DNA of 64,000 bases from Rhizophagus irregularis (lineage: Eukaryota; Glomeromycota; Glomeromycetes; Glomerales; Glomeraceae), in assembly GCF_026210795.1 (NCBI RefSeq), contig NC_089446.1, positions 868,001-932,000 of the forward strand. The letters are read 5' to 3'. Under the pieces are notes generated by a model. It searched no databases. It was not told the DNA's origin and saw only the letters and a program-made list of their open reading frames with translations. Below, in pieces: positions 2,556 through 52,040 of the stretch (positions are counted from its first letter, which is position 1; every line of letters starts with the position of its first letter). A program made the translations under genes and the position numbers.

Positions 2556-2656
2556 AAAATTTATTATAAAAAATAAAATAAAATTAGAATATCAATTTTA
2601 TTAGTAAACAATTTTTTATTATATTTTATAATGAAATACAAAAATATACTAATCAA

Positions 2657-4329
2657 TCAATATCTTTGTGCTGCTTGCCTAATGTTTTTTTGCCACCCAA
2701 TTTTAACAATTCCTAACTTTACCATTTGTTCATCAGTCAAATCTTTAATTGCATTTACCGTAATTTCTTCTTCTAAAAAAGCATTTTCAAATTTGGAATA
2801 TACATTATTACAATTATATTTTTGATCTAAGTTAAGAAAAAATTCAGTAACTGAAGGTAATTCATGATTTGTAGTAGGTGATGATATTGGATGAATAGAT
2901 GTTGGATGAATAGATGTATTTGAAGGAGAATGAGAATAAGGATATGGCATTTGAATCACAATAGGATTAACAGGTGTAGTAGATGTAGTAGACGCTATAG
3001 TTGGTATTTGTGTATCATTATTTTTGTTTACCAACGTGCCCAATACTGCATTGAATGTTGGAAATGTTGGAGGAACGTCATAAGTAGTATTTTTATTATG
3101 CTATAATTTTTATTGAGGTTAGAATTGAAATAAATGCAAAATCAATTTGCTAATAATTAAAATTACTTACAATTTCACGTGCCCAAAGCTGTAATCTAGC
3201 TGGATTTAGTTGTAAATGGCGATTTTCTTGAATAAAGCATGGTGTATTATGCATATCACACTTGTATTTTTCACATAAAGCAGCTATGATTCCCGCTCTT
3301 GTTTGTTCTTCTTTAGATAAATCATTTTCTTGAATAGCACGCGACTTTCTTTTCTTTTTAGAATTTGATAATATTCTTTGATTTCTTTCTTCATCAGAAG
3401 CTGAGGAATCACTTTTGTCAGAAGCCTGAAATTTTTAATATGAAATTAGATATTGAAAAAACTAAAAAAACAGTTGAACTTCAGAACTTTCTTACCTTTG
3501 AACGCTTTGATTTTGTTTTTTCATTTGTAGAATCATCACCAATTACAATTATTATTGACACTTTCTTGCCTGCAGCAATGATTTTCTTATAATCTTCAAT
3601 AAATTCATTAAAATCCAATTTATCTTCTAATGTACTTGAAGGGCCACGCGCATTTACTGCTTTATATGACATACTGTAATCTGCTGGCTTGATATTTCTA
3701 TTCTTAAGTGCTTTTTGAACAGCATTATTGATTCCTTCTATAACAGTAATATATTCAACTGGTTTAATGGTTATAGTTTTAGAAGTAGAAGTTTTCTTAC
3801 CCTTCTTTTCAATAGCTATTTGTAACTTGATTTGATCAATTCCATAGTCTTCAACTTCAGAAAATTCAGAAATATCATCCTCATCTTCTCCATCAACAAG
3901 ATCACTAGATTTAGTATCTTCAACATCAATAGATATACTATTCATTTTGTTAGTAGATTTTTCTAATATCTTCTCCTCTTTTTCAGCAAGTATTTTTTTT
4001 TTAGTATATATGTCTTTTCTTTTAGCTAACTTATCATTACCTTTCAATCTTTGAAATTTACTATTGCAAGTAGAACAAAAGGTGAAAGAAAATGGAATGT
4101 TAAAATTGCTATTGTATTGAAATTTTTCGTTAGCAGAAAAAAGAAATTGGTTTGTTGTTTGCAGTTCTTCGTTGGGAGTAAAAACGCGAGAATAAATTTG
4201 TTGACCGCGTTGTGGGTTGCCTACTCTTGTTAGTTTCACACTTTTATCACACTTGCAAGTGTCTAAAGTAAAACAAATTAAACACTTTTTACAAGTGTAG
4301 CAATTAGCAGGTAGATATTCACGCGTCAT
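2657..4329 (-). CDS. Transposon passenger gene with zinc-ribbon-like N-terminus and SAM-like C-terminus
   Basis: Predicted exons on the minus strand are 4329-3496, 3425-3171 and 3100-2657 (510 residues), with GT..AG introns of 70 bp. An in-frame ATG also exists at 4350; I prefer 4329 (MTREYLPANC). The N-terminus has paired cysteines (CYTCKKCLICF, CKCDK, CSTCNSKF) that look metal-binding. The middle is acidic and Lys-rich, followed by a charged segment with more Cys/His (KYKCDMHNTPCF). The last about 70 residues (LPSVTEFFLNLDQKY to the end) resemble a SAM-type helical domain. No enzyme motif is seen. Its place inside the inverted ends suggests an accessory DNA- or protein-binding factor. I recall this as a high-copy family in Rhizophagus, but cannot check that here. 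Confidence 0.72.
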
Positions 4330-4460
4330 TTTTTGGATTTTATTGTACAAACTGCGCCAGGTACTATCCTTTTATATCATATTTTAATTGAAAATCATTT
4401 AAGAGTCACGCTTTTATTAACAAATCAAATAACTCGGGTGTTTTTGGTGTTTTCGGTAAA

Positions 4461-4512
4461 TTTATTATAATTGATCGACATAGTACAGATTCAACCAAAT
4501 CGAAAATAGCGA
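4461..4512 (-). repeat. Right terminal inverted repeat of the Tc1 element
   Basis: This is the inverted partner of 1005-1056 and is followed directly by TA at 4513-4514. Confidence 0.85.
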
Positions 4513-4514
4513 TA

Positions 4515-7500
4515 ACAATTAACTTTATTTCGAAAAACGTTCACAAAAATGACGAGAAAAAGATCATTATCAAGTATACTCAATGAAGAATCAGATTCTA
4601 GACCTCATGCCATACCTTCATCACGTATACAAAGAACCAGATCAGTGTCAAATATAATTGACGAAGAATCTTCAAATCAATCTTATCCTACATCATCACG
4701 TATTGGAAGGTTAGTTGCATGTAATTGTTCTGAATGTAATGGACGATTAGTAGATCCTCGTACGAAAACTATCCATGAAATTAACCAAGATTCAGAGGAT
4801 GATAATTCAGAAAGAACAGAAGTACATCTAACTGATGAAGCTGAATTGCCTAGTGACGAACCATACAAAAGTGCCTCAATATTAGATGAACCACAAATGA
4901 GAGAATCAGAAGCTGAATTACCTAGTGACAAACCATACGAAAGTGCCTCAATATCAGATGAACCATGAATGAGAGAATCGGAAGCTGAATTGCCTAGTAG
5001 ACAACGATCAAGAAAATATGTTCGACCGGTTATAATTGCTGAATTAGGAGATATAGTAGATGATAAATCTTCTGAATCTTCTGAATATACTACGGAGGAA
5101 GATGCAAATATCGATGATAGAAATGAATCATCTGATAATGAACCATCCAATGATGACGAATACCACAAAATTTTTGAAGATTATTCATGTTCACCTTTCA
5201 AACCATTTCAAGATTCTGATACTGAACAATCAATAAATAATCGGTTCTTATGGATATTATTATGGATCATGAGCTTCCGAACCAGGTTTAACTTACCAGA
5301 AACAGCTACAGAATCATTGATAAAATTCTTGAAGCTTGTTCTAACAGAAATCGGTAGTCCTGATTTTGACACATTTCCTGACACTTTATATCTAGCAAGA
5401 AAAGCCCTTAATCTTGAAGACCGGTTTCATAGTTTTGTGGCGTGTTCCAAATGCCACAAATTATACAACAAACAGGAAATAAAAAGTTTTCTCCAAAATG
5501 AGCAACCTGCCATCATGAAGTGTTGCCATGTCGAATTTCCTAATTCGACAACTAGAAGATTAAGGTTGTGCCAAACACCTTTGGCACAGAAAACAACATT
5601 GTTAAATAACCAAATTTCAATCAAACCTGAATTATTATTTCCGTTTGTGAGTATTAAGCAGCAATTGGAAGCAATGTATCGTCAACCTAACTTTGAAAAT
5701 TCTCTAAGGCATTGGATAAATCGTCCAACTTTCGATAATATCCTAACTGATATATACGATGGTGAAGTTTGGAAAACTTTTAAAGAAACGACAGATGAAA
5801 GTTCGAATAATTTTTTCCGATCTGATGTTGCTGATTTGCACCTCGGATTGATTTTGAATTTGGATTGGTTTCAACCCTTCGATGGCACAATCCACAGCAC
5901 TGGAGTAATATACGCTGCAATCGGTAACCTTCCGAGGGATGTCAGATTCAAGCGCAATAATATCTTGATTCTTGGCTTATTACCCAGCCCAGATGAAGTA
6001 AGTTTACATAAGATTAATCACTATCTGGCGCCAATCATTGATGAGTTGAAGTCACTTTGGGAAGGAGTGACATTAAATCAAACGTATGAATGTCAAGAAG
6101 GGAAAAGAATTCACGCAGCTCTGATTCTTGTTTCATGTGACATACCGGCTGCAAGAAAAATTTGCGGACATATTTCCGCTTTGGTGTCGTGTCATAGATG
6201 CGAAAAGAAGGCGAATTATGAAAATTGGCAGCATAATTTTGCTGGGATAAATGAAATGGACGAATGGTTTACTTGCCGTGATTCGGCTCAACATCGTCAA
6301 GATGCTATAGGATGGAGACGCTGTAATTCAGACGCAGCAAGAAAATGATTTGTAAAGCAAACTGGAGTTAGATGGTCCGAATTATTGCGTCTACCATATT
6401 TCGATCCAATTCGGTTCATTACAATCGACCTGATGCACTGCTTGTTTCTGGGTATCGCAAAATGAATTGTAAGAAGACTTTGGATCGAAAATGGCGTATT
6501 AACAACACATATTTTGAAAACAGTTCAGAAAAAAATGGATGAATTTAAAGTTCCAGCTGACTTGGGTCAAATCCCGGGAAAAGTCGATTGTGGAGATGGG
6601 TTTTCAAATTTTACTTCGGATCAATGGAGAATATTTTTTACAATATATGCAACGGTCTCTCTCTGGGAACATCTTTCTGAGAATGACCGGAAGATTCTCG
6701 TGAATTTTGTGAGAATTTGTTCAATTTCAGTAAGTCGAATTGTAGAAGTCGATTTCATGAGAGAGGCGCATCAGAGGCTAATTAATCTAGTGAAGTTGAT
6801 AGAAGAAAATTACGGTCGTGATAAAATCACACTGAATTTACATTTATCACTTCACTTATGTAAATGCTCACTCGACTATGGACCTTTATATACATTCTGG
6901 TGTTTTTCCTTTGAGCGCATGAATGGCATGCTAGGTATAATATTTTAAATATTCTTGTTACTTTCTAAAATAATGCATTTTTATCAACTTTTGTTTAAAA
7001 TAAATTTAGGCTCTTTTCCGAATAGCAGAAGGAAAATTGAACCAGAAATTATGCGCCGCCTGATGTTTGATAATCAAATCAGTAATATCATTAATTCCGG
7101 CGTGAAATCAAAGGGCCTAGATTTGATTAGTAATAGACCATCTGTTGGCTCTCTATCAGAAGCCGACCAATTTTCTGCTGATGAAATGAGGCGATTTTGG
7201 TTGACTTCAAGAAACATTCATGAATCGACCACCACAGGAAAAGAAGCATTTCCGGGCGAAATGCTCAGACCAGTATTTAACGATATTGTAATGTCAAGTG
7301 ATATGCTTGACTTAATAGTTGAATACTACATGGCGAGCTACAAAACGATGGAATTTCGGAAACCATTTGGAGAGGGTGCAGAAGATTCGATAATAGTTCA
7401 AATTAAAATGAATCAATTTGGAAGGTGCCGAATTAGTTCTGAAATATTCGGCTCTTTGATATCATCACGTCATGTAAAAAGCTCATTTATCTTGGCAAAA

Positions 7501-8299
7501 TTTATGACAAAAAGTGGTGATATCGATTGCTATCCTGGACAAGTCCAATACTTTTTTACACATGCCGTTAATTTGCCAGATGGGTTATCCGAATATAATC
7601 TAGCATTTATTCGCTGGTATAAACCTGCAGAATCATCAAATATTCGGTATCATTTCAGAGTTAGAGATGACGAAATATGCAATGTTGAATTATGGGGTAC
7701 CGAGTTTTACCCAGAATCCCGTGACTGTATTATTCCAGTTCATCATATTCTTGGCCGATTTATACCAACGAAATACCGAATTTCAGGCAGGAGAAGTTCA
7801 AACGTCTATTTAGCGGTAAATCCAGTCAATAGAAAATTTCATATTCGCTGAAATTAGTATCTTTTTCGAACTTTATTTTGATGAAATAACATATAATTTC
7901 AAATAATACAAATATCGGAATTTATTAAATTTCAAAATAATACAAATTTCAAATAATACAAATATCGAAATTTATTAAATGTTAAAACAATACAATACAA
8001 ATATCGGAATTATTAAATGTCAAATTTACATATAATATAATTATCGGAATGTCGAAATATTATAATGCGCAAACATCGGAATTTGAAACAAATATCGGAA
8101 TTTTGCACCACAAATCGGCTATGCCGAATGTCATCTGATATGCAGCCGATTATCGATCATATCCGAAATCGGAATTTTGCATCGCAAATCAGCTATGCCG
8201 AATGTCAGCCGATTATTGATCATATCCGAAATTTATCCGAAATTTGGCCGAAATTTGGCCAATTTGCCTTACTTCCGATTTGCCTTATTTCGACTAGTG
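4515..8299 (+). mobile_element. CACTA (Tnp2-type) transposon, right part; left end not found
   Basis: The right end reads GCCTTATTTCGACTAGTG and stops at 8299; on the other strand it begins CACTAGTCGAAATAAGGC. The same terminus closes the MITE at 35114-37973 at both ends. The subterminal DNA (about 7860-8290) is full of short repeats such as ATATCGGAATTT and CCGAAATTTGGCC. No matching left end is present between 4515 and the transposase start, and none was seen in 1-1003. The left end may lie outside the window, with the Tc1 element splitting this one. Confidence 0.72.
4549..7851 (+). pseudogene. Tnp2-family CACTA transposase, interrupted by three TGA stops
   Basis: There is one long exon from 4549, a 75-bp intron at 6935-7009 (GTATAA..TTTAG), then an exon to 7851. 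The N-terminal 200 residues are acidic with a duplicated MRESEAELPS unit. A Cys pair region (CSKCHKLY, CCHVEF) follows. The core has Tnp2 hallmarks: HLGLILNLDWFQPF, IGNLPRDVRF, ILILGLLPSPDEV and DLMHCLFLGIAK. Downstream is a domain ending in a charged stretch. The frame is broken by TGA at 4966, 6346 and about 6462, each consistent with one transition (CGA to TGA, or TGG to TGA for the third). Otherwise the frame is intact, so decay is recent. The protein would have recognised the CACTA ends. Confidence 0.85.
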
Positions 8300-8588
8300 A
8301 TCTGAATAAATTTATATTTAAATATAAAACTGATATATTATTAGTAGTATCCTACATATGCAACTTGAAATAACTCATATAAACTCACATAACATAAATA
8401 AATAGTTAAAGTACATAGTGTTAAAGTATTATAAAAATTAGTATAGAACAAATTTTATCATATAAAAAATTGATTCAAACTTAATTTGACTCAACTTATG
8501 AGGAATATTACTAATTATTAAATATCTCATATCTGTAAAATATGAATAAAAGATTTAAACTTATATTTAAACCAGATTATAATTTTAA
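7860..8588. repeat. Subterminal repeats of the CACTA element, then unannotated AT-rich DNA
   Basis: From 7880 to about 8090 the motif AATACAAATATCGGAATTTA recurs. From 8090 to 8250 a block of about 75 bp (ATCGGAATTTTGCA.. TATGCCGAATGTCA.. CCGATTAT.GATCATATCCG) occurs twice. After the terminus at 8299, 8300-8588 holds nothing I recognise. Confidence 0.6.
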
Positions 8589-9517: not shown

Positions 9518-12500
9518 TTAGTCTTTGTACTTCATTCTTTTACACTTCGAAGAGTGAGCATTTGTTTTAAAATACGTTTCATATTCTTCATTAACGTTTA
9601 AGTATTCAAAAGTCACGTGCCAATCTATTTCCAACATTCTGTATTTATCATTTCTATTTAAGTTAAAAAATTTTTCTAGCCCTTGTATCCGCGTAATTAA
9701 TCTAATAAATCTTCTTATATTAGTTTCCACTATTGTTTCATTCCATCTTAGCACATATCTATACTCTTTGCATGTTGGCAACACTTCTAATTTATTAACG
9801 TTATGAATATCAACATATCTTTCTTTGATTTCTATATCCAATATATTATGTAATGTATCTGTTGCATGAGCTTTAATCTTAATTACTTCTATATCCAGTT
9901 TTTCTTTAGAAATTATTTCTTTAATAATAGCCCAAATATAATTACTAGATCCAAATTTTAGTATATCTCTTAAATTATTTCTATGTGGTCTTTGTTTGAT
10001 GTCCATAAAATTGTTGTAATTTGTTTGACTATCTGTATAAATCGTAGCTTTCTTATTTTCTGGTATAATTAATAAAGCTGCTAAAAGTGCCAAAGCTTCT
10101 GTTTTATTGACTGTAATCCAATTTTCCACTGTTGACATTATTGTATCTAATAATTTATTATCTTCATCGTAAATCATTAATCCAAATATTGCTTCAATAT
10201 TTTCTGTTTTATTATTTTTGACTGATCCATCGATATATATATTAAGTTTCGCCCCTCTAGCAGTTGTCAATCTATTTTTACACAATTGCAATCTATTCGT
10301 CATCGGTCTATAAGCTCCTACTTCTAAAAATTGACTAATCATATCATCTATAAAGGATATTTTATCTTTTGATATTATCTCATACATTTTGCTATAAGTA
10401 GATTTGTATAACCATGGTTGTTGTTTTAATATTCTATCGTATATAAAGTTCTCCTGAATTACTTGTCCACTAATTCCTGGAAATATAGTTCTTTCTTGCC
10501 CTAGAATATTACCTTGATTAATACCATTTTGCCATTTATTCCTTGAAAAAGTACTAGCATTTCTAACATTGGTCATAATTATACACGGGATCCTAACTCG
10601 TTCTAAATGTGAAAACATTACTTCTGGAACATCTAACCACGTTGCTGCATTACATCCTGGGCATTTTTCTAATATTAAATCTTTATCTTCTATTGTTGTT
10701 ATTGGCACCATATGCATTGCTATTAAATGACCACCAGGTAAGACTTTTCTAGTTCTTCCAAAGACTGCTTGTAAATTTCCTCCGATGTTGACTTCTATAA
10801 TGATTGGAACGTCTTTTTTCATATTAGCCATTACCGGTATTAATTCAGTCCCTCTTAAATTTTCTACTCTATCGATCCCATCAATTTGGTTGATTATATG
10901 ATTTTTTAATTTGTATGTGTGCGGCGACATCGTTAGTTCTTTTATAATTTGGTCATAATTATTAATATTAGCTGATAATCTTCCTTTTAAACTAAGTTTG
11001 ACATATTTTTTATCTTCAAGTTCTTTGATTGTTAAGAGATATCGTTTACTAGGAGAAAGCAGTTGATCTATATATCGAATATTGTTATCTTGTAAAAATT
11101 TAAAGTTATTAACGTAAGTATCTTCTGAAATTAATAATCTAACAGTTGTAGGTCCTCCTTCCACTTTAAATCTTTCCACAATTCCATCATCTTTTTCTAA
11201 ATCAAAATCATTATCTCTCATTAGAAGTATATTCCTCATTGTAAAACTTTCATTGTAAAACTTCTTAATCACGTGACTCGTCTTATTGTCGATAGTATAC
11301 AAAGGATTATTTTCTAAAAGCAAAAGATTTTGTATACTTGTAAGTCGAATATCCATTATTTCTCCAAGAATACCCTTGTCATTTATCTGTAAAACAAAAT
11401 TAGTTATTTTTGCCTGAAGTTGATTATTAGTAAAACTGTTTAAATTGTAAATGTAATTAGTTTCCAAGATAGCATTAGGCGCTGTACAAGCCATTTTCAA
11501 TTTGTTCTTCAAAACTTTTCTAAAAGGTGACATTAATTTCTCCATTATCCTTTCATCCATAACTGTAAGTTGTGTTCGATATTCTACTATTGGTATAATC
11601 AAATAATTGAAAAGATATATCATCATTTTATCAGTTAATCCTTTTTTTGTTGTAAATGCTTTATTAATTAACATGACTTCATTTTTGACTTGTTGCTGTA
11701 TATGTTGACTTTTATTGTACATATTAATCCATACTCCTAGAAATCTTTCAGAGCCATTATGCTTGACAGGTTGAATTTCCACTTCTTCGTTTCCAAAACT
11801 GAGCTTGATTTCTTTATTTAGCCTTTTTCGTTTCTTAAATCTTATTAAAAGTGCTGATTTTTTCTTGTTTATTTTAATATCGTTAAGCGTATAAAAAGAA
11901 TCAGCTATCTTTAAAATCTTTTCCATGTCCAATTTGTTTCCTGTTAAGAAGCTTGTATCATCCATATATCCACATGCTGGAAACCTGAGTTGTTTTTCTC
12001 TTGTTAATCCTTCATATATATCCAATTGTTCTTTTGCCGAAATCTTAAATCCCAAATTTGATTTTCTCAATCTTTCTAAAAGGGGGTCGTAAAATATAAT
12101 CCATAGTAGTGGAGAAATTATTTCCCCTTGATCTATTCCAGTTTTCATTTCAAAGGGTTTAGTCAATCCAGCAGGAGTAAAAACTTGATTGGTCCTTCCT
12201 TGAAACATTCCTATTATTATATTACATAATTTTTCAGGTATCTTAATCCTCTTCATCGCTTTTCTTAACATAAAAATATTAACTCTGTCATAAGCTTTCG
12301 ACATATCTACTAAAAAAAACCATAATTCTTTATTTTCTTCGTTAGCGTAATCTATTAGTTCTTTAATAATTCTAAGCGGTTCGAAAGTGGATTTCTTTGG
12401 CAATCCAGCAAATTGGTGTCCTCTAAGTATGTTGTATTTAACCATAGCGTCGGACAATCTATTAGTTATAATCTTCATGAACATTTTTCGTAAAGTTTCT

Positions 12501-14614
12501 AAAAGAGTTATAGGTCGAGTATTATTAAGATCATATCCCCAAGGTTTCGGCTTTGGAATAGGATATATGTTAGCTTTTAACCATTGTTTCGGTATTTCTT
12601 CTGTATCCATAATATCATTGAAAATTTCCTGTATATGATCTTTTAATGGTAAAATTGTTAGTTTAATATCTTCGTACGTTATACCTGAAGGTCCACTAGC
12701 TTTTCCAGAAGGCAAGTCTTTTGCTACTTCCAATATTTCGTCTATAGATATCTTTTCTAAAACTTTATCGTATGCAAATGATGGAACATGTGGTTGTGTC
12801 CTAGGATTATATTCTTCTTTCCAATCTTCTGGTATTTCTTTATCTATACTTATAGATCCAGCGCAATTTTGAAAATGATCAGCGACTTTTTCTTTGATTT
12901 TATCTTCATCCACAATTAGTATGTCTTCGCCTTTTGAATTGGTAGAAAGTACTCTATCAATAGTAATTTTCTTAAATTCTCTATCCATAACATTGTCTAT
13001 CATTCTCCTTTGATTGTCTTCCAAATCTTTTTGTCGTTGTTCAATGGCGTGTTTGATTTTATCTTCTTTCATCGTCGATACTTTAACCTGTAGTTTTAGC
13101 TGAAAAATTTCATATAATTCATCCAGTTTCGCAATGTATTTTTTGATTTGTACATTTCCAAACCTATATGAACGCAAGTAATAGAAGCCATCGACATTCC
13201 ATTTTTTTAATATTTTGTCCACGTGACTTATATTCTTCTTCCAATGTTGTTTAACATTTTTTATTCCTTTCTTTTTTTTAAATTTTCTTCTTAAACTAAT
13301 AAAGAATCTTACTATCCGGTATAATTCTAAATCTTTAACACTTGTATCTTCTTTTTCATTAGTTAGATATATTTCTTTTTTTTCAATTTCTGAGTTTTTA
13401 GTTGCATTAATAACATCCTCGTAAAGCTTTATCTTCTCATCTAAGGTTATTGTTGTAGTTATCATTCTATTTTTCCTCTCGTTAAGCTCCTGTTTGGCTT
13501 TAACTTTAATAGCATCTTTAATCTCTTCATCGATTCTATCATAAAAATATTTAATTCGCTTATCAGATTTTCTTTGTTTTTTCTTGTTATATACGATCGA
13601 TGGCAACACAGTGTTTCGAGTCACTTTGAAGGAAATTATTTTATGATCTGTATCGTTTTTGCTATCATATTCCTTTATGTTTACTTGAATTATTTCTTCA
13701 AAAATTTTCTTTGTTACCCAGATATAGTCGATTCTTGAGCCCATTTTTTTCGTTATATGAGTCACATGATTTTTCGTTAACGCTAAATCATCAATATTGA
13801 GCACTTCTTTACAAACGTCATATAATTCCATATTTTCCAAAAGTTCAAATATCTTTAATTGTTCTGAAACTCTAGTTCTATTACTATTCTTTTGCTTAAG
13901 ATATTTTTTATACTGTAAATTAAAATCGCCCATTAAGATTATTTGTTGATTTTTCTGTTTACTATCTTTGATCATTTTCATAATGTTTTTATTGATATCA
14001 ATTCTTGTTTCTACACAAACTTTCCCTCTATCTCCACTTTTGTTGTATACTGATATAATCGCCAACTTTTGTTGTTCTGAAAAAGTAAGCTCTATTTTTA
14101 AAATTCGTCCTTTGTACCTATCCATTTTACTAATATGCTTAGCTAATTCCTTTTTCATAATGATTAAGGTTCCTGATCCATTAAAATCCACACCCACTGT
14201 TCCAAAAACTTGATGATTCATAAATTTGTTTTGTGTGATGAATTTTAATTTTTTGTTAGTAATTCTAGTTTCGGTAATACTCAAAATATCTATGTCATTT
14301 TTTTCCAAATAATCTGCCAAATTTTGAACCTTAATATCGTTTAGTTGCCTTATGTTCAATGTCGCAACCTTAAAAAAATGAATAATGTTAGTATCAATTA
14401 TCATACTGTTATCAAGTTCATTTTTTTTCCTTTTTCTTTTTCTTTTTTTATAGTTTCTTATATGTTTGCTATTATTAACTTTTTTATTTTTCCTTGTATC
14501 GTTATAAGGGGGAGATGATGTATTAGAAATATTTAAATTGTTATTGTTATGTTGATTGTCCATCATTAAAATTATTGTTGGTAGTCGTTGTTGTTGACAA
14601 ATCGGCTGCCCCAT
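9518..14614 (-). CDS. LINE ORF2: AP endonuclease, reverse transcriptase and RNase H
   Basis: The frame is open for 1698 residues. The first ATG (14614) overlaps the end of ORF1 by 68 nt in a +1 frame; a second ATG (MDNQHNNNN) lies 17 codons later and may be the real start. Domains in order: a basic leader; APE endonuclease at about 85-340 (VATLNIRQLND, ITETRIT, LMGDFNLQYK, SRIDYIWVTK, DTDHKIISF); reverse transcriptase at about 650-930 (FFLVDMSKAYDR, TGIDQGEIISPLLW, catalytic YMDD in FPACGYMDDTSF); a CPGC motif; RNase H at about 1455-1610 (YIDGSVKN, TEALALLAALL, YTDSQTN, IKAHATDT). The frame ends early because of the shift described in the next entry. Confidence 0.9.
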   Translation of the reverse strand: MGQPICQQQRLPTIILMMDNQHNNNNLNISNTSSPPYNDTRKNKKVNNSKHIRNYKKRKRKRKKNELDNSMIIDTNIIHFFKVATLNIRQLNDIKVQNLADYLEKNDIDILSITETRITNKKLKFITQNKFMNHQVFGTVGVDFNGSGTLIIMKKELAKHISKMDRYKGRILKIELTFSEQQKLAIISVYNKSGDRGKVCVETRIDINKNIMKMIKDSKQKNQQIILMGDFNLQYKKYLKQKNSNRTRVSEQLKIFELLENMELYDVCKEVLNIDDLALTKNHVTHITKKMGSRIDYIWVTKKIFEEIIQVNIKEYDSKNDTDHKIISFKVTRNTVLPSIVYNKKKQRKSDKRIKYFYDRIDEEIKDAIKVKAKQELNERKNRMITTTITLDEKIKLYEDVINATKNSEIEKKEIYLTNEKEDTSVKDLELYRIVRFFISLRRKFKKKKGIKNVKQHWKKNISHVDKILKKWNVDGFYYLRSYRFGNVQIKKYIAKLDELYEIFQLKLQVKVSTMKEDKIKHAIEQRQKDLEDNQRRMIDNVMDREFKKITIDRVLSTNSKGEDILIVDEDKIKEKVADHFQNCAGSISIDKEIPEDWKEEYNPRTQPHVPSFAYDKVLEKISIDEILEVAKDLPSGKASGPSGITYEDIKLTILPLKDHIQEIFNDIMDTEEIPKQWLKANIYPIPKPKPWGYDLNNTRPITLLETLRKMFMKIITNRLSDAMVKYNILRGHQFAGLPKKSTFEPLRIIKELIDYANEENKELWFFLVDMSKAYDRVNIFMLRKAMKRIKIPEKLCNIIIGMFQGRTNQVFTPAGLTKPFEMKTGIDQGEIISPLLWIIFYDPLLERLRKSNLGFKISAKEQLDIYEGLTREKQLRFPACGYMDDTSFLTGNKLDMEKILKIADSFYTLNDIKINKKKSALLIRFKKRKRLNKEIKLSFGNEEVEIQPVKHNGSERFLGVWINMYNKSQHIQQQVKNEVMLINKAFTTKKGLTDKMMIYLFNYLIIPIVEYRTQLTVMDERIMEKLMSPFRKVLKNKLKMACTAPNAILETNYIYNLNSFTNNQLQAKITNFVLQINDKGILGEIMDIRLTSIQNLLLLENNPLYTIDNKTSHVIKKFYNESFTMRNILLMRDNDFDLEKDDGIVERFKVEGGPTTVRLLISEDTYVNNFKFLQDNNIRYIDQLLSPSKRYLLTIKELEDKKYVKLSLKGRLSANINNYDQIIKELTMSPHTYKLKNHIINQIDGIDRVENLRGTELIPVMANMKKDVPIIIEVNIGGNLQAVFGRTRKVLPGGHLIAMHMVPITTIEDKDLILEKCPGCNAATWLDVPEVMFSHLERVRIPCIIMTNVRNASTFSRNKWQNGINQGNILGQERTIFPGISGQVIQENFIYDRILKQQPWLYKSTYSKMYEIISKDKISFIDDMISQFLEVGAYRPMTNRLQLCKNRLTTARGAKLNIYIDGSVKNNKTENIEAIFGLMIYDEDNKLLDTIMSTVENWITVNKTEALALLAALLIIPENKKATIYTDSQTNYNNFMDIKQRPHRNNLRDILKFGSSNYIWAIIKEIISKEKLDIEVIKIKAHATDTLHNILDIEIKERYVDIHNVNKLEVLPTCKEYRYVLRWNETIVETNIRRFIRLITRIQGLEKFFNLNRNDKYRMLEIDWHVTFEYLNVNEEYETYFKTNAHSSKCKRMKYKD

Positions 14615-33873: not shown

Positions 33874-34249
33874 TTATTTTTATTTTTTTATTATTTATTA
33901 AGTAAGTAGCTAGGCCCAGTCCGTACCAAATATTGGCTGGAGACTCACGTTTTTTTTGGGCTGTGACTGATACTGACGTCCACGCCGTACAGCCTGGGTA
34001 CTATTTTATAAAATAGTAGCGAACAAGTATCAAATGTGTATTTTTTTTATTAAGTTATAATAAAAATTAGAATTTACTTTAATTTTTAACATAAAAATTG
34101 TAAATAATAAAAATTCGTAAATAAAAATAAATTTGCTTTCCCAAACTTAAAAAAAAAGGTGTTTATATAAAAGAAAAGGTGTTTATATTATTTTTGATTA
34201 TTCAATAGTATCACATGCCCCTTGTATACGTTCTACTGCATATGCAGTT

Positions 34250-34910
34250 TACAATCTCGTAAATTTTCGAAATATTTCAACCGTAATATTACGCAGGTTT
34301 ACAGTTTCGTAAATTTTTGAAATATTTCAACCGTAATATTACGCAGGTTTACAGTTTCGTAAATTTGCAGAATATTTTGACCGTAATATTACGCAGGTTT
34401 ACAGTTTCGTAAATTTTCGAAATATTTTAACCGTAATATTACGCAGGTTTACAGTTTCGTAAATTTTCGAAATATTTTAACCGTAATATTACGCAGGTTT
34501 ACAGTTTCGTAAATTTTCGAAATATTTCAACCGTAATATTACGCAGGTTTACAGTTTCGTAAATTTTCGAAATATTTTAACCGTAATATTACGCAGGTTT
34601 ACAGTTTTGTAAATTTTCGAAATATTTCAACCGTAATATTACGCAGGTTTACAGTTTCATAAATTTTCGAAATATTTCAACCGTAATATTATGCAGGTTT
34701 ACAGTTTCGTAAATTTGCAGAATATTTTGACCGTAATATTGCGTAAATCTTACGATATTGAAAACTCACGTAATATTTTAACCGTAATATCACATAAATC
34801 TTACGAAATTGTAAACTTACGTAATATTTTGAAATTTTTCAAAATATTATGCCATAAACTTTCGTAAACTTACAAAATCGTAAACTTACGCAATTTTTCG
34901 CGCTATAAAA
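34250..34910. repeat. 50-bp satellite in the right subterminal region
   Basis: About ten units of exactly 50 bp: CCGTAATATTACGCAGGTTT, then ACAGTTTCGTAAATTTTCGA, then AATATTTTAA. Divergence is small apart from variants with GCAGAATATTTTGA (34368, 34716). CpG sites in TTACG and TTCG are largely kept. The array ends in looser copies that run into the inverted end of the composite element. Confidence 0.9.
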
Positions 34911-35359
34911 TTTCCTGATGACTTATAAAGAAATAAATTTTATTAGTAAAAATTTTGCTTAACAGTTAGTAATATTTATTATAATTTTTTTACTTGTTAT
35001 ATTTAATATATTCTACATAATTTCACTTTATCACTTTATGGGCCAGTGCAAAAAGATTCGTACCTCACTAAAAATAGATAAGATTTACATTAAGGTCAAA
35101 TATTGCACAACAACACTAGTCGAAATAAGGCAAATCGGAAATAAGGCAAATCGTCCTTATTTCAGCTGAATTTCGGCTAATAATTGACGATCGTCTGTAT
35201 ATCAGGTGACATTCGGCATAGCCAATTTCCGATTTCACTAGTTGAAAAAGGCCGGCCTATATTCAATTAAAAATTCGACCATGATCTACGATTAGACATT
35301 GGTCAAATAGTCTAATTAAACGTCACGCATTACACATATCAAAGTTTAAAAAAGGATCT

Positions 35360-35525
35360 TTATTAAACTTTCCCCTTTCATCCCTTCCTTTCACTTCACT
35401 TCGTCCCTACTTTCCCCTGTCTTTTCGTCCTTCCCCTCCCTTCCTCTATTGTCCTTTCCTTTCCCTTTCGTCCTTCCCTTGCTTTCCCTTTCGCTCTCCC
35501 TCTTTTCTTACACCTTTCTTCCTAA
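35360..35525. repeat. Polypyrimidine tract
   Basis: About 165 bases are almost entirely C and T on the plus strand (TTTCCCCTTTCATCCCTTCC and similar). It lies just upstream of the intron array in the same MITE. It could serve as a long splicing-type pyrimidine tract or form triplex DNA; both are speculative. Confidence 0.7.
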
Positions 35526-35929
35526 GGTTGCTTGCCGAAATCAAGTAGTTTAGGCCAAGGCCGAAACTTTTTTAAAACCGAAAGTTTAGGCAATTAAAAG
35601 TAAATTTGCCGAAATTATACAATGCCGAAACTTTTACCGAAAGGACGAAATTTGGCCGAAATTATTGGCCAACATTAATACTATAATTCTGGCCAGAATA
35701 ATGATCGACATGTAAATTTCCTTTTTTGGAAATTCGTGTAACGTCACGTAACACAATATCATAATTTCGGCCGAATTTTAATTTTGGCCAAAATTAAGAC
35801 CGAGTTTCAGCCTAATTTCGGCATTTTCGGCATTTGATTTGATTGGCTGAAATCTTTCGGAATTTCCTTTTTAGTTTTGGCAGGCAACCTTATTTCTTTT
35901 GCCTCTTTTTCTTGGAAGTAATGTAAGTT

Positions 35930-37600
35930 TCATTTCGAAACTTACATATTTTTTTTAATTTTTTTTTTTTTTTAATTTAAGAAACGAATTTCTTTTCATT
36001 GTTTTTTTTTTGTAGGACGCCAGCTTTAACATGAAACTGGACTTTAAGGTAAAAAACGGGAAAGTGAAGTTTTGTTAATTTAAGAAACGAACTAACGTTT
36101 CTTTTCATTATTTTTTTTTGTAGGACGCATAGGAGGACGCCGGCTTTAACATGAAACCGGACTTTAAGGTAAAAAATGGGGAAGGGGTAATGGGGTAAGG
36201 GAATTGGAGAACCAAGATTCTTAAGAATCTTGGTTTTTATTTTTTTAATATTTCGGAACGGTTACTAACCGTTCCTTTCTTTTTTATAGGTTTCGGCTTC
36301 CTGGTTCTGAAGAATGGAAAAGAACCAAGATTCGTAAGTAAACGAATCTTGGTTTAATTTTTTTTGTTTTTTTTTGTAATATTAACGAACAGTTACTAAT
36401 AACCGTTTTTTTATTTATTATTTTAGGATCAGGTTGGCTTCTGAGTTCCGAAGAACAGAAAGAACCAAGTTTCGTAAGTACAAGTATGAAACTTGGTTTA
36501 TTTTTTATTTTATTTTTTTTCCTATTATATGAACGGTTACTAACCGTTCCTTTCTTTTTCTTATAGGTTCAGCCATTTGGGTGAGTTTCCGAAGAACGGA
36601 AAAAAACTAAGATTCTGTACTATGAATCTTAGTTTTTTTTTTCTTTTTTTAATATTTGGAATGGTTATTACTAACCGTTCTTTTTCTTTTATTTTTTATA
36701 GGTTCGGTGTCTCGGGGAGGGGCTTCTGAGTTCTGAAGAACGAAAAAAAAACCAAGATTCGTAAGTATATACGAATCATGGTTTTAATTTGTTTTTTTTT
36801 TAATTTTATTAATGAACGGTTACTAATAACCGTTCTTTCTTTTTTTAGGTTCGCGAGTTCCGAAAAACAGAAAAGAACCAAGATTCGTAAGTATATACGA
36901 ATCTTGGTTTTAATTTTTTTGTTTTGTTTAATTTTATTAATGAATGGTTACTAATAACCGTTCTTTTCTTTTTTTAGGTTCAGGTAGGCTTCCGATCTTT
37001 GGAAAAAGTAGAACCAAGATTCGTAAGTAAGTACGAATCTTGGTTTAATTTTTTTATTATTATTATTACGAACGGTTACTAATAACCGTTCTTTTCTTTT
37101 TTTTTAGGATCAGGTGGATTTCTGAATTCTGAAGTACGGAAAAGAACCAAGATTCGTAAGTATATACGAATTTTAGTTTTGTTTTTGTTTTTTTTTTTAC
37201 TATTTGGAACGGTTTACTAACTGTTCCTTTCTTTTATTTTTTAGGTTTCGGGTTGACTTTTAAAGATCGGAAGAAAAGGAACCAAGATTCGTAAGTAAGT
37301 ATGAATCTTGGTTTATTTTTTATTTTTATTTTTTATTATTTTGGAACGGGTACTAACCGTTCCTTTCTTTTATTTTATAGGTTCGGGTGGGCTTCCAAGT
37401 TCTGGAGAACGGAAAAAGATCAAGATTCGTAGGTATATACGAATCTTGGTTAAATTTTTTTTATTAATATTAATGAACGGTTACTAATAACCGTTCTTTT
37501 CTTTTTTTAATAGGTTTGGGTGGATTTCTGACGAATGGATGAACCAAAACCAAGATTCGTAAGTACGAATCATAGTTTATTTTATTATTATTATTTTATT
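35930..37600 (+). other. Tandem mini-exon/intron array with splice-site and branch-point hairpins
   Basis: Units of about 130-145 bp repeat about twelve times. The best intron predictions are 36334-36426, 36474-36566, 36617-36701, 36761-36848, 36887-36977, 37023-37107, 37156-37244, 37291-37380 and 37429-37513. Most start GTAAGT and all end in a T-rich tract plus AG. The exons between them are 38-59 nt. Each intron holds GGTTACTAATAACC or a variant: a stem with the branch-point motif ACTAAT/ACTAAC in the loop. The donor lies within a second stem (CCAAGATTC .. GAATCTTGG). Two earlier units (36015-36048, 36124-36168) have a different exon with CTTTAACATGAAAC. No long frame runs through the exons, so a coding role is unlikely. 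Confidence 0.8.
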
Positions 37601-38085
37601 ATAATTTTGAATTAGCAATATTTATTTGTAATTTAGATAGATGCTAATAATAATAATATAATTATAAAGTTTTTAAGTATTTAATTAATAAATACATTTA
37701 ATAAATTTGATAATAAAAATTGAAATAAATTCAGAAAAAAATAGTCCGATTTTTGTCTGATTTAAGTTTTGAAGTACATCTAATTGACTGTCTGAATTTA
37801 GTATGATTTAATTCTGATTTATGTCCGATTTAAGTTCTGAAGTACATCTGATTGGCAGTCAATCGGATAACAATCGGAATATATTTTTTGTAAAAATCAG
37901 ACATATTTTAGCCGTAATTCGACCTAAAATCGGATATCTGATTTTTAGCCGATTTGCCTTATTTCGACTAGTGCAAAATATAATGGTCCAAAATTTATAT
38001 ATTTGATAAATAATAACTAAAAGTACTTGATTTTTAATTTTTTTTCTTATACCATCCTTTTTTCTTTTTTAAAATAAAATAGAAT
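37600..38085. other. Right subterminal part of the CACTA MITE and short spacer
   Basis: GAAGTACATCTAATTGACTG and GAAGTACATCTGATTGGCAG are two copies of one subterminal block, with TCCGATTT.TGTCTGATTTAAG words, leading to the terminus at 37973. The spacer after it has no gene. Confidence 0.6.
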
Positions 38086-39580
38086 ACTGTTAAAATAGGA
38101 CCCTAGACATCTAGGGATGGTAAAGTCCTAGGTCCTGGACTTAAAGACTTGGTTCTAGGACCTGGTCTGCAGATCTTTAGGTTCAAATTTTGGACCAGAA
38201 GCAGACCAAGTCCTAAAAAGTCCTAGCCAATAAGGTTATAAGAGATCCATATATTTAAATTATATATGTATAATTTGCTGTAAATTTGATTTTAAGTAAT
38301 TATAAATTATAAAAAAGTGTATTGCAATATTGCAATATAATTTTTATATTATTAAAATCATATAAAAAATGAGTTGCGATATTGGGATTCACATTTTTAT
38401 ATTAAATCATATAAAAAAGTGAATCGTGATACCGCAACTCACTTTTTTTATATAAAATCAATATAAAAAAGTGAATCGCGATACCGCAACTTACTTTTTT
38501 TATATAAAATCAATATAAAAAAGTGAATCGCGATACCGACACTTACTTTTTTTATATAAAATCAATATAAAAAAGTGAATCGCGATACCGCAACTCACTT
38601 TTTTTTATATTCTTTTTTTATATTTTTTTTTTAGGCATACTTCCCGGGTTACCAGAGAGTGCAATTTGCGTTTAAAATCAATATAAAAAAGTGAATCCCA
38701 ATATTGCAACTCACTTTTTTTATATTTAGTTATTACTAAATTCATAAAATCTATAAATAACTTAATCAGGACCAGGTCCAGGGACTAGGTTCAGGACTGG
38801 TCCTAACAGGACCTGATCTGCAGGTCCGTTCAATAGGACTTATAGGTCCCTAGGACCAGGACTGGATCAGGATTAATCTAACCATCCCTACAGACATCAC
38901 ATATATAACTCACATTTGAGCTTTAGCAAATTCAATCAAAATTAGGTTAAACTCATAATTTTAGATAGAGCAAATTAATTGAAAATTAATTAAAAGTCAT
39001 AATTATGAGTTTTAGCAAATTGTGTTGATTTTACAAAGTCATATTTTATATTTGAGCAAATTGGTACTTTTTTTTGAATTTAACTTATCCTTTTTTTTTT
39101 AACTTTTATTGATAATATTTTAAAAATATTAGTTTTGGAGTCAGGGTTATATTTTGGCCAAAATTAAGTATAATTCCAGACAAAATTAAGCATAATGCAG
39201 GCCAAAAACCGTTTGATTAGTTTCGCAACATTTTTTTTATTTTCAGTTTTTTGCAATTATCTCGGCATCCAGTAATCCGATTTATGCGGATTTTTTTTAA
39301 TTTGTAGAGCTCAATAAAGGCTACAAAACAAAAAAATGTTCGCATAAATTGGACCACTGGATGCCGAGATAATTGCAAAAAACATGATTTTTTTTGAAAT
39401 TTAGGCCAATTTGCTAAAAAGTTATACTCATATTTTGAGTTTTAGCAAATTAGTATAGATTTAAAATGTGATAATTTGATTTTTAGCAAATTAGGTCTAT
39501 TTTAGCAGGAGCAAAAAGTGCTAAATTCATGCAGATCAGTTATGAGTTATATGTGATGTCTGGGGTTCTGTTAAAATATA
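38085..39580. mobile_element. Foldback element interrupted by a hAT MITE
   Basis: ACTGTTAAAATAGGACCCTA then GACATC (38088) plus ACATATATAACTCA (38899) matches the minus strand of 39540-39580 (TTTTAACAGAACCCCAGACATCACATATAACTCA, given in parts). Arms rich in TTTAGCAAATT words follow on both sides. Inside the arms is an inner inverted pair at 39246-39289 and 39340-39383 (GCAATTATCTCGGCATCCAG). No gene is present. Confidence 0.65.
38112..38890. mobile_element. hAT-type MITE with internal hairpin repeats
   Basis: The ends are TAGGGATGGTAAAGTCCTAG and, on the minus strand, TAGGGATGGTTAGATTAATC, both followed by CCTGGTCC-type words. Flanking 8-mers TAGACATC (38104-38111) and CAGACATC (38891-38898) match at 7 of 8. 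The centre (about 38395-38715) is a tandem repeat of about 58 bp containing AAAAAGTGAATCGCGATACC and GCAACTCACTTTTTT, each unit able to fold on itself. No coding capacity. Confidence 0.83.
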
Positions 39581-39589: not shown

Positions 39590-41173
39590 CAGTCACCCCT
39601 CTCTACAGCGAACCTCGATATAGCGAATAACATGATATAACGGATCATACAGTGTGGTACCGATTTTAAATATGAAAAAAACCTTGATATAACGAAGTTT
39701 ACTATTTATTTACCGTATAACGTAGTACAAAGTAAAGTGTGTGAATTTCTTATATAAAAATGCCTCTTCGATATAACAGATTTTTTTTATAACGAATTTT
39801 TTTCAGTTATAATGAAGAATTTCTTTATAATTAAATGTAATTATTAATAAATATTGATGCATTATGACATTAAATATCACCCCTGTGTTTTATATTTAAA
39901 TTATGGATCAGGATTGTATCAGGATCGTATCAGGATTAATAATTCTGGCTATTTTATTTAATATTTAGGCAGAATTACATTAATTTACATTAATTCGGTT
40001 GTATTAGGATTCGATGTGAATTGTTATTAATTTATATTTATCACAGGGGTAAGGACACTCCTAGTTAAATTAATATATCATTAATAATTTATTTATTATA
40101 TAGTCAGTTATTGTTAAACAGCATTCCTACAAAAAAAAGGAATTATAATAAACATTTTTATATAGAACACTTCAGGAAGCATTCCCTATAATAAAAAAAT
40201 AAAAAAAGAACATTAGTAAATGTTCTTAAACGAAATTAAAAGAAAAAATTGAGTTGTCCCACTTACTTCTTGTCTCAAGCGTTCATTTCGAAGTCCCTAC
40301 AATAAAAAAAAATAAAAAAGAATATTAGTAAATGTTCTTAAACGAAATTAAAAGAAAAAATTGAGTTGTCCCACTTACTTCTTGTCTCAAGCGTCCATTT
40401 CGAAGTCCTTACAATAAAAAAATAAAAAAGAACATTAGTAAATGTTCTTAAACGAAATTAAAAGAAAAAATTGAGTTGTCCCACTTACTTCGTCCCAAGC
40501 TTCCATTTCGAAGTCCCTACAATAAAAAATAAAAAAGAACATTAGTAAATGTTCTTAAACGAAATTAATAAAAAAAATTGAGTTCCCCACTTACTTCTTG
40601 TCTCAAGCGTCCATTTCGAAGTCCCTACAATAAAAAAATAAAAAAGAACATTAGTAAATGTTCTTAAACGAAATTAATAAAAAAAATCGAGTTCCCCACT
40701 TACTTCGTCTCAAGCGTCCATTTCGAAGTCCAGGAAGTTCCCTATAATAAAAAAATAAAAAAAGAACATTAGTAAATGTTCTTAAATAAAAAAAATTGAG
40801 TTCCCCACTTACTTCTCGTCTCAGGCGTCCATTTCGAAGTCCAGGAAGTTTCCTACAATAAAAAAAATAAAAAAAGAACATTAGTAAATGTTTTTAAACG
40901 AAATTAATATAAAAAACCCCCCAGTTCCCACTTACTTCTCATTCTAGGCATCTATTTTGAAGTTTAGAAAGCACCCCTATAAAAAAAAGATTAAAAAAAA
41001 TGTTAAATTATCGGTAATCAGATCAACAAGTCACATGATCTGTATAACCGATATTCCTATACCGAAGAATTCATTATACAATACCGAATAATTTGTTATA
41101 GTGTTAACGAAGTTGCTTATAACGAAGCCCTGATCAGCTGGAACCTAGGGTTCGTTATATCGAGAGAGGACTG
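39590..41173. mobile_element. Pogo/Tc1-like MITE carrying a second mini-exon/intron array
   Basis: CAGTCACCCCTCTCTACAGC on the left pairs with CAGTCCTCTCTCGATATAAC read from the right end on the minus strand. Both lead into CGAACC and both are flanked by TA (39588-39589, 41174-41175). TATAACGAA words are frequent in the subterminal parts. It has no transposase. The central 0.9 kb is the array described separately. Confidence 0.82.
40105..40990 (-). other. Second mini-exon/intron array (minus strand)
   Basis: Seven donors (GTAAGTGGGA on the minus strand) lie at about 40261, 40373, 40483, 40589, 40698, 40807 and 40930, spaced 106-123 bp. Each intron runs through AAGAACATTTACTAATGTTC, where the branch-point motif TACTAAT sits in the loop of an 8-bp stem, then a T-rich tract and TTGTAG or TATAG. 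Exons between introns are about 28-45 nt. The commonest is 30 nt (GGACTTCGAAATGGACGCTT plus GAGACAAGAA), which could be read as GLRNGRLRQE. Lengths of 28, 38 and 40 nt in other units would break that frame, so coding is doubtful. Confidence 0.78.
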
Positions 41174-48429: not shown

Positions 48430-49335
48430 CTTCTTCAATTCCTACAAAATAAAAGCAAAAGAATTGTTAGTAAACAATTCCTAATAAGAAAATATAAAAG
48501 ACAAAACTAAAACAATAAAATTTTGCAGAAAAATTTACTATTTTTAAACTATAATGCTTTTATTGAATCCTTCAGAATCTATAAAAACATAACAAAAAAA
48601 TGTTATTTAATGTTTTTATTACTAAAAAAATAAAAATATGATAAGTTTTGCAAAGAAATTTATCATTTCCAATTTCTAGTATTTAACTAAAACCTGTAAA
48701 TAAAACTTACAATTAAGAGTTGAAAGAAATATTAAAATAGTTGTAATTTAAAAAAATTAAAATGTTTAAGTTTTACTTTATAACGAAACTTACCTAAGTA
48801 TCTATTGTTCAGTAATATCACTTAAAAGTCAAAACCTACAAAAAGAAATATTAGAAATTGTTACTATTAATATAAACAAAATAAAAAAATATTATAAATC
48901 CTCAAAAATCTTATAAGAAAAAAAAAATGAAATGTTAGAAAATACTTCTATTAATAAAATAAAAAAATTTAGTTTTACAACATAAATATTGCAAAACTTA
49001 CCAATTTCATATTTAAAGCTTAACATCAGACGAAACCTACAAAAAAAATAAAGAAAGTTAGAAATATTTCTTTAAAAAAAGCAAAAAAAGAAAAGTTTAA
49101 AGTTTCTTTCATACCAAAAAAATCTCTTATTTTCTCAAACTTTTCTAAAACTACCTATTATTCTAATCCAAGATCAATACTGAAGGGAACTTACAAAACA
49201 AATAGAATTGATGTCTTCTTAAAAAAAATACCAAAAAAAAAATTAAAATTTCAAAATTTAAACTTACCAATATCTTACCTTTAAAGTTGAAGAAAGTCTA
49301 AGGATTTCAAGTTACTGATTTACAAAAGAAAAGTC
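48430..49335 (-). other. Third, degenerate mini-exon/intron locus (minus strand)
   Basis: Read on the minus strand there are repeated GTAAGTTT donors (about 49264, 49001, 48793) and TTTTTGTAG-type acceptors (about 49037, 48836, 48437), with exons of about 35-45 nt such as GTTTCGTCTGATGTTAAGC. Some introns again have a branch-point motif between short inverted arms: GAATTGTTTACTAACAATTC near 48460 and AAAGAAATATTTCTAACTTT near 49060. It is less regular than the other two arrays and no transposon ends were found around it. No long frame. Confidence 0.55.
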
Positions 49336-49479: not shown

Positions 49480-49720
49480 AGGTAAAAGAAGAGATGAGAG
49501 AAAGAAAGGTAAAGAAAAAAGGAGAGGGTACAAAAAGTAGAATAAGATAGAAAGGTAAGAAGAGTGAGAAAAATAAAGAGGAAGAACTAGTATCATTTAA
49601 AGAAAATTGTGGCTAGAAAAATGAAAAAATGAAAAAGAAGTAAAAAAAGAAATAAATGAAAAAAGAAAAAAAGGAAAATGAAAAAAAAATGAAAAATAAA
49701 AAAAAGAATTTTACTGCATT
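49480..49720. repeat. Polypurine tract
   Basis: The plus strand is almost entirely A and G (AAGAAGAGATGAGAGAAAGA and similar) for about 230 bp. It lies upstream, on the minus strand, of the degenerate intron locus, which mirrors the polypyrimidine tract ahead of the first array when strand is taken into account. Confidence 0.6.
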
Positions 49721-49729
49721 CCTCTTTTC

Positions 49730-52040
49730 ATAATTTCTAAGGAAATTAAATAAAACATTTCATCTATATCTCAATATACATTCTTTATATTGGATTTACT
49801 TTTTCACTACAAATCCTAATATAGTTTTATTTCTTTAGAATTTTTCCAATTACTAATATAATATAGTAATTTATCAATTCATTATATTACTTATTTTCTT
49901 ATAATAAGCTTTAATTCATTCAGTTTTTAGATACTTTAAAACCTTTTTATCTATCTTCAAGTTTAGATCTTTAGGAATACCACATAGGTATCCAATTATA
50001 TTAAGATAGTTAAAATAATTTATATGTCAAACTATTACTAGTAATATCTGCCACTTGTTAGCATAGAAAAAAGGTATAAGTAATCAGATCATTTTCAAAT
50101 TTATCCATTTTTTCACTTAATTTGAATAGTGTTGTAAATGATTGTCAAGAGTTGATATGTTTTTTGATCAATTTTGGAAAAGCTCAAATAAAAATTTGAG
50201 TTGCATTTTATAATAATACTTAATGCATTATGCTTTATAATTAGATCATGAGTACAAGTACGAGTTGTTGTAGACAAATCATAATCATAATCATAATGTA
50301 TATGCTTATGCTTCTTTGACATCAAAAGAATAAAATTGCGATTTAGAGCTTTCTGTGCTACTTTTATTGTAAGTTAAGTTAGACCTTCAAAAAATAGAAT
50401 CATAGAGTAAAACTGATCTACATACATAAAAAAATAAAATTTTTTTCATATGATAATTATTTTTATTAATTAATAAATTAAATATCACTGTTAAAGTTTA
50501 AAAAAAAAATTCATACAAATTGTATTATATGAAAATTAAATTTATTTTTTATTTTTTTTTATACAATAAATACAATAAATTATTTTTATTAAATTACATA
50601 AAATTTTGATTTTAAAAAAAAATTTAAAATTTTTTTATTTTTTTTCATATAATTATTATTTTTATTAATCAATAAATTAAGTACCATTTAAAGGTTCAAG
50701 AAAAAATTCATACAAATTATATTGTGAAAATTAAATATCATTTTTTCATTTTTTTTTAAAAAGAAAATTATTTTCAATAAATATATTTTCTAATTTTTTT
50801 GTACAATAAATATAATAAATTATTTTATTATTTTTTTTTCATAAATTGAAATTTTTAATGATCTACTGTACATAAAAAAATGTCACTTGATTTATTTAAT
50901 TTTTTTTTTTAATAAAAAGAAAATTACTTTCAATAAATACTAACTGTCACCCATTGCTTTGCATTAGGACCAATGAGTTTTTTTAAATAGAAAGATTTAG
51001 TATTATAATGTAATACTAAGTAAGTTAAAGAAATTTTTTGTTTATAATTAAGAATTTAATATGGTAATAATTAGGTAACAAAAAAATATGTATTAAACTA
51101 TATTTATAATATTAGAATGATATAAATAATAAATTATTTTTAAAATAATATAGCTATTTATATTAATGATTTGATGTTTGAGTGTAGAGTGAAATTCAGA
51201 TTATTAAGAATTGTGAAAAAATAATTTTCAATAAAAGTTGATTAATTTTTTAGAAGTATTTTTGAAAAAACTTTAATATTATGAAAATACTACAAATATT
51301 TTTATTAATTAATTATAAATTTTATAATTATTTTTTATTATTTTATATTATGTTCAATTTTTTTTCAGTTTGAAAAAAAACAAAAAATTTAAAATTAATA
51401 ATCAAAAAAAAAAATTCTGATTAAAGTAAAATTTCATTAACTGAAATTGTATTAGTTGATTGGAATATCACGGATAAATAAATCAGGTGGAGGCATATCA
51501 CAGTCACAGGTTTTAATCATATTGCATGGAATTTCAAGTTACACAATTCAAATTATACTAATCCAAATATCAGACAAATTTTTTTGTAGTTTTTAGATAT
51601 ATAGATTTATCAAAAAATTTATTATAGATTTAATTACAAAATATCTATATAATTAAAAACAATTTCACTAAAAAAAATTTATCAAAAACATTGAAAAAAA
51701 CAATCTCATAAACAAAAAATAGTTTACACTAAATTGAAAAAAAAAATCTCAATAAATAAAAAAAGTTTTCACTAAATCAAAAAAATTCTCATTAAAAAAA
51801 AAATCTTGAAAAGGCTATAGGACATAGTTCTATAGTCTTGTCCTAAACCAAAAAAAAAAAATAAATTGTATTTTTTTGGTTAAAAAAAAATTTGATAAAT
51901 TCTGAATTTCTGATTAAAAAAAAATCCAATAAAAATAAAACAAAACAAAAAAGAATAAGAAAAAATTTTGGTTAAGTTAATCAAAAGAAACAATAATGAT
52001 AAAGAAAAATAAAAATTAATAAAAAAAAAGACTAAAAAGG
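49730..52040. repeat. Low-complexity AT-rich DNA with internal duplications
   Basis: Copies of a block with AATTCATACAAATTGTATTA and TACAATAAATACAATAAATT occur near 50505 and 50700. A block TGAAATTTTTAATGATCTAC .. TGTCACTTGATTTATT at 50868 recurs near 57150. A 70-residue minus-strand frame at 50113-50325 shows no family resemblance and I do not call it a gene. Confidence 0.5.

Follow-up and report, generated by a model that had tools for sequence, protein, structure and literature searches.

The DNA analysed here, a 64-kb window of the Rhizophagus irregularis genome, contains a transposable element that carries short exon-like and intron-like units in tandem, and it raises the question of whether such an array is spliced in series when transcribed, codes for a repeat protein, or is a satellite in which splice signals persist without use. 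Our best explanation, which we believe and doubt in about equal measure, is that the array belongs to a non-coding passenger transcription unit, probably serially spliced, tandemly amplified, and common to several kinds of non-autonomous DNA transposon.

A preliminary description of this DNA had reported a tandem array of mini-exons and introns on a single strand, and this was confirmed when the array was delimited (by our own bounds, drawn partly by eye): 13 predicted introns of 75-95 nt, all on the plus strand, alternate with 12 internal exons of 33-71 nt over approximately 35923-37636 (Table 1). The array was present as described; its extent, the sizes of its introns and their number, previously put at about twelve, were revised. 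Tandem Repeats Finder reported a period of 136 with 9.5 copies at 36234-37516, plus related rows. All 13 predicted introns begin with GT; three donors are weak (GTAAAA at 36049, GTAAGG at 36195 and GTACTA at 36617), and a TACTAAY-type branch site was not seen by eye in introns 1 and 13. A chain detector requiring at least four consecutive introns was run on the 64-kb window, 100 kb of sampled genome, the locus L021 and 12 reversed sequences. Three chains were returned in the window, with seven and four introns in the main array and four in a second array; the ten 10-kb genome samples, L021 and the reversed sequences gave none. No known RNA family reached the gathering threshold in the window, and no tRNA was found there by ARAGORN (bacterial code).

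The cargo of the element runs, in order, from an upstream block through a CT-rich tract and a probable first exon to the 13 predicted introns and an AT-rich 3' end. Judged by sequence, the upstream block and CT-rich leader are probably a promoter and 5' region. Set against 15 loci, the leader and first exons matched at length in L052 (78-80%), L056 (75-78%), L025 (80-88%) and L005 (93%) and in part in L008 (94-96%). The remaining 10 loci gave short matches, and in some of them the left portion of the element is not covered. Of 12 oriented sequences, 6 have a recognisable 3' part.

Table 1. Coordinates of the array-bearing elements and their parts, in positions of the window.
Feature	Position	Strand	Remarks
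Non-autonomous CACTA-type element carrying the main array	35114-37973	+	2,860 bp; inverted ends of 25 bp, identical; flanked by CAA
Upstream block and CT-rich leader	35240-35521	+	alike in other loci
Nested 371-bp repeat	~35522-35893	.	TA on either side; matches many other places on its own
Predicted intron 1	35923-36015	+	donor inside palindrome 35921-35947
Predicted intron 2	36049-36123	+	donor GTAAAA is weak; palindrome 36082-36103 holds the branch site
Predicted intron 3	36195-36289	+	alternative donor at 36169; nearby palindrome 36208-36237 without GT; branch-site palindrome 36255-36275
Predicted introns 4-6	36334-36426, 36474-36566, 36617-36701	+	donor and branch-site palindrome each
Predicted introns 7-9	36761-36848, 36887-36977, 37023-37107	+	donor and branch-site palindrome each
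Predicted introns 10-12	37156-37244, 37291-37380, 37429-37513	+	donor and branch-site palindrome each
Predicted intron 13, boundary to AT-rich 3' end	37559-37636	+	donor palindrome 37554-37571
Right end common to the element and transposase-bearing L021	37742-37973	+	93% over 235 columns
Second array-bearing element	39590-41173	-	TA duplications; CAGTCCTCTCTCGATATAACGAACC end
Second array	40190-40940 (approximate outer bounds)	-	7 parsed introns of 71-83 nt, exons of 28-40 nt
Third, eroded array (probable)	48440-49300	-	one clear branch-site palindrome 48459-48482; by eye

The element that carries the main array has the features of the CACTA/EnSpm group. Its identical 25-bp ends are inverted repeats that begin with CACTA, and the CAA target duplications noted in the preliminary description lie on both sides of it; of 11 elements in which both ends are present, 9 have identical 3-bp flanks, within the 2-3 bp typical of the group. 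The terminal repeat CACTAGTCGAAATAAGGCAAAT occurs at 58 plus-strand and 59 minus-strand places in the genome with up to three mismatches, and at none in the reversed control. The 6.95-kb L021 matches the element over the right 232 bp at 93% and the left 109 bp at 79%, and encodes a tnp2-type transposase (Transposase_21, PF02992; E 4.1e-13, in one of six pieces scanned). Because these ends are shared with L021, which bears the transposase and has no array, the window element can be understood as a non-autonomous transposon of CACTA type that carries some 2.5 kb of other sequence. It had been called a MITE, a label that does not suit an element of 2.86 kb (about 2,490 bp minus the nested repeat), since MITEs measure 50 bp to 1 kb, without transposase, in PMC11075540. 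The nested repeat is missing from the other matching copies, which align on both sides of it with the query gap-free, and an empty site with continuous flanks is found in L005. Two satellites lie near the element, one at 34247-34740 (period 50, 9.9 copies) and one at 38308-38610 (period 52, 5.8 copies), the latter built of near-palindromes.

It had also been proposed that the whole element could be spliced out, so that its insertion in genes would be tolerated. Many strong intron signals in one orientation would suit this idea, but no donor or acceptor is predicted near the element ends: the outermost predicted sites are a donor some 800 nt in from the left end and an acceptor some 340 nt in from the right. 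With the outermost splice sites so deep inside the element, insertion into an exon would leave both element ends in the RNA, and we consider removal of the whole element extremely improbable.

The main array is not alone in the window. A second element, putatively of pogo/Tc1-mariner type and with the TA target duplication of that type (4 of 4 copies examined), carries an array whose donors read GTAAGT and whose branch-site palindrome is AAGAACATTTACTAATGTTCTT, in a sequence that differs from that of the main array. In four distinct copies of this second family, with the window copy counted once, GTAAGT begins 28 of 28 introns, and one acceptor reads AAG. A 1,591-bp query from this element gave 51 matches, of which 14 span at least 1,570 bases at 93-100%, and one copy of the family (C8:5274624-5276097) contains 14 exact palindromes at a spacing of 110-121 nt. 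A probable third array, from which the chain detector returned no chain, has a CT-rich stretch upstream at about 49500-49750. Neither the second array nor the palindromes nor the presence of the unit in other transposons had been noticed in the preliminary description.

A search of the genome (146.7 Mb, 32 contigs) for further copies, as had been suggested, yielded many arrays, and the elements that carry them have ends of at least three kinds: CACTA type, TA type and CATCAGCAAGTTT ends. The last kind is represented by L031 and L032, which have in common a 3.6-kb element carrying the main unit type, with apparent 2-bp duplications, TG and AA, in 2 of 2 cases by eye. A second CACTA-type subfamily (L022, L023, L024, L026 and L029) ends in ...TTTTTCGACTAGTG. 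L052 and L056 have 2.65 kb in common (98.7%) and are carriers of uncertain type, as the likeness extends about 390 bp past a CAACTAGTG motif. Only three units are present in L055, and in some carriers the leader is kept with the array. L032 also contains a T-rich stretch of 1,023 nt from donor palindrome to acceptor. It has 15 hairpins, and its 13 AG compare with 33 expected by composition; it may not be one intron, because three YAG lie inside it. Several of these hairpins hold GGCTAA-type branch-like motifs.

The units are numerous, and their signals follow one another in a fixed order. A 281-bp two-unit query gave at least 401 matches in the genome, and branch-site palindromes with at most one mismatch numbered 572 for one type and 230 for the other, against none in reversed controls. 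Among the matches listed (100 exact palindromes, C1-C10), about 41 loci were counted by hand; about 16 of these were new and looked lone, and the eight that were fetched all proved to be arrays of 3-11 palindromes. Arm strings independent of pairing were used to search 27 non-redundant loci, a set that leaves out the overlapping L001, L016 and L018-L020 and has L021 and the later loci L033-L060 outside it. This gave 450 arm pairs, 327 with a second palindrome and 312 with an acceptor too, the acceptor being required by the search itself and the 138 pairs lacking one being dropped from the counts. Throughout these 312 main-family units, donor, branch site, pyrimidine tract and AG stand in the order of a U2-type intron, with GT in register in 253 and TACTAAY in 296. 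Predicted introns are 71-109 nt long in the GT-starting units, and the mini-exons of the family are 22-59 nt. Copies vary in their series of exon lengths through recurrence of the same values (46 and 48 in L005; 46 six times in L024).

Palindromes frame these signals. In the main array they hold 11 of the 13 predicted donors and 11 of the 13 branch regions, as in the donor palindrome AACCAAGATTCGTA-agtata-TACGAATCTTGGTT and the branch-site palindrome GAACGGTTA-ctaa-TAACCGTTC. None of 15 other intron-like candidates in the window, the 100 kb of samples and L021, some of them surely due to chance, has palindromes at both places. By eye, introns 1 and 2 of the window element, an upstream intron of L022, two introns of L032 and one of L052 show the same arrangement built on other stems. 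RNA folding gave z-scores of -6.4 and -6.8 for two stretches of the main array, and of +1.6 and -2.1 for two stretches of the second, the +1.6 stretch being without a whole branch-site palindrome. The two helices were examined in an alignment (A1) of 30 of the 253 GT-starting units, chosen to be more than 16% different, in which GT is conserved by construction. There 93.7% of cells pair, against 88.7 in shuffles, and both sides have changed in 25 cells, against a shuffle mean of 7.2; neither value was reached in 500 shuffles.

The arms of the palindromes thus covary between units, yet their pairing in RNA is uncertain. G-U outnumbers A-C in the donor palindrome by 67 to 30 in CACTA-1 copies and is outnumbered by 28 to 62 in other arrays; in the branch-site palindrome the counts are 52 to 45 and 22 to 15, respectively. 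With no consistent preference for G-U over A-C, the symmetry could be a matter of DNA, and the palindromes could be dyads that bind protein or are prone to replication slippage, with the intron signals incidental. Such a reading would also suit the changes in the arms, which are mostly at CpG-type positions and alike on both sides, but it does not account for donor, branch site, pyrimidine tract and AG being ordered on one strand in 312 units, nor for the identical order of signals in a second family of different sequence, and we regard it as improbable. Palindromes with a donor and a branch site inside them are expected to hinder as well as to help splicing.

If the units are spliced, the joined exons might encode a protein. 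Concatenated predicted exons contain long stop-free stretches in most of 17 arrays, with up to 176 codons in L022, and the window array alone has no stops where 1.4-1.5 are expected (p 0.08 and 0.03), as would fit a gene whose micro-exons encode a low-complexity repeat protein. Over 18 arrays, however, the best frames contain 15 stops, and randomising the phase gives 14.6, as does shuffling the order. Exon lengths are spread over the three classes modulo 3 (111, 62 and 61 of 234). The exons are stop-poor and may descend from one stop-free ancestral exon, but no single frame is kept across the exons of the 18 arrays, which makes a repeat-protein gene very unlikely. The stop-free stretches were likewise rejected as evidence of splicing, their excess being gone once phase or order was randomised in these arrays. 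Among distinct main-family exons from the 27 loci, stops occur in 63/199, 54/199 and 27/199 in frames 0, 1 and 2.

The expectation that GT and AG ends would be conserved among copies had a mixed outcome. The GT counts of both families agree with it, but the donor G is lost no less often than its mirror-image CpG changes: it has gone in 15 of 223 units, against C-to-T changes in 19 of 223 at the mirror position (21 losses in all), p 0.48. Because donor loss is not below mirror CpG loss, no selection for splicing is visible in single copies after insertion. The array might accordingly be a silent passenger, an intron-bearing piece of a gene that was captured long ago, amplified as a satellite in transposons and is now mostly neither transcribed nor spliced, its signals persisting through shared ancestry and recent copying. 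In its favour are the want of visible constraint on donors in decaying copies, the presence of ATAAGT instead of GTAAGT in 17 of 312 units, and the lack of a kept frame. Simple copying of one unit, however, would not lead one to expect a single layout on different stems in several introns and carriers, and some carriers have kept the leader with the array; we consider this alternative somewhat unlikely. No spliced genomic copies or exon-exon junctions were found in the whole genome with two junction patterns at up to three mismatches, though DNA transposition would leave none anyway.

The preferred reading, a passenger unit spliced in series, draws on the same observations. Splicing of the units into a chain of micro-exons is plausible, since hundreds of copies, and the second family of different sequence as well, have the four intron signals in the right order. 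The ordered signals on one strand, the different stems and the carriers with different ends favour true introns in active lineages, while the decay of single copies disfavours a function after insertion. The unit would consist of the upstream block, CT-rich leader and first exon, tandem pairs of a mini-exon and a U2-type intron of about 71-109 nt, and the AT-rich 3' end, and once transcribed would likely be spliced in series into a non-coding RNA. Folded in RNA, the palindromes could compact and insulate each intron, and this insulation might let each donor pair with its own branch site among near-identical ones; both steps are uncertain. Unit number would shift within elements by unequal exchange or slippage. 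Most tentatively, serial introns might raise the expression or stability of the element RNA, or aid escape from silencing, and so contribute to persistence. In Cryptococcus neoformans, introns are reported to raise the mRNA level cumulatively (PMC3744415).

A stronger version of the preferred reading is that the arrays form an undescribed class of transposon cargo, serially spliced and insulated by palindromes, which several DNA transposon types of this arbuscular mycorrhizal fungus gained or exchanged because splicing itself benefits the element, whether by recruiting the spliceosome, by evading silencing or by acting as a decoy for splicing factors. We put this forward as rather unlikely as a whole; if true, selfish DNA would here be multiplying introns as tandem satellites rather than singly in genes. 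If the arrays are spliced at all, spliceosomal introns can multiply inside selfish DNA by a route unlike that of introners, and the palindromes of different stems framing donor and branch site would provide a natural test bed for RNA structure guiding the pairing of near-identical splice sites.

Several known systems resemble parts of this picture. Among the papers listed from open-licence PubMed Central on introners and hairpins, CACTA elements or MITEs and splicing in R. irregularis, micro-exon arrays in transposons, repeated exon-intron units, structured introner-like elements and SOS splicing, nothing comparable appeared. Introners and fungal introner-like elements (PMC9860276) likewise comprise many similar spliceosomal-type introns per genome and have a link to DNA transposons, but they are single introns in new positions of host genes, whereas the introns here form arrays in or beside transposon sequence, as did all eight lone-looking loci fetched of the approximately 16 among the matches listed. 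The arrays were therefore not classed as introners; the word 'rhizophagus' does not occur in the main text of that paper. The internally symmetrical stwintrons and sister introns of Hypoxylaceae are also proliferating fungal introns with inverted symmetry; in PMC8469720, however, their symmetry is one of terminal repeats spanning the intron, and they are single in genes and without target duplications, unlike the two small palindromes that frame donor and branch site here in tandem arrays within duplication-flanked transposons. Non-autonomous CACTA/EnSpm elements with captured sequence (CMC/Plavaka in R. irregularis, PMC11075540) correspond in their ends, duplications and transposase-bearing relative, but the cargo here is a tandem exon-intron array; the main text there has no occurrence of 'intron'. 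Tandem exon duplications and micro-exon genes (PMC9013439, PMC10526429) have rows of similar or very short exons in coding host genes, whereas transposons are the carriers here and no frame is kept. SP7-like effectors and AGL genes of Rhizophagus were set aside, as the passages on them describe an intron close to the start, conserved or single, and no arrays.

Other mobile sequences lie in the same window. Positions 1-8301 hold a reversed copy about 96-97% alike to L021, cut by the window start, with a terminal repeat at 8278-8299. A 251-aa open frame at 1456-2211 (+) gave weak matches to HTH and DDE_3 transposase, all below curated cut-offs, and a 1,698-aa open frame at 9518-14614 (-) with reverse transcriptase, RNase H and endonuclease domains is LINE-like.
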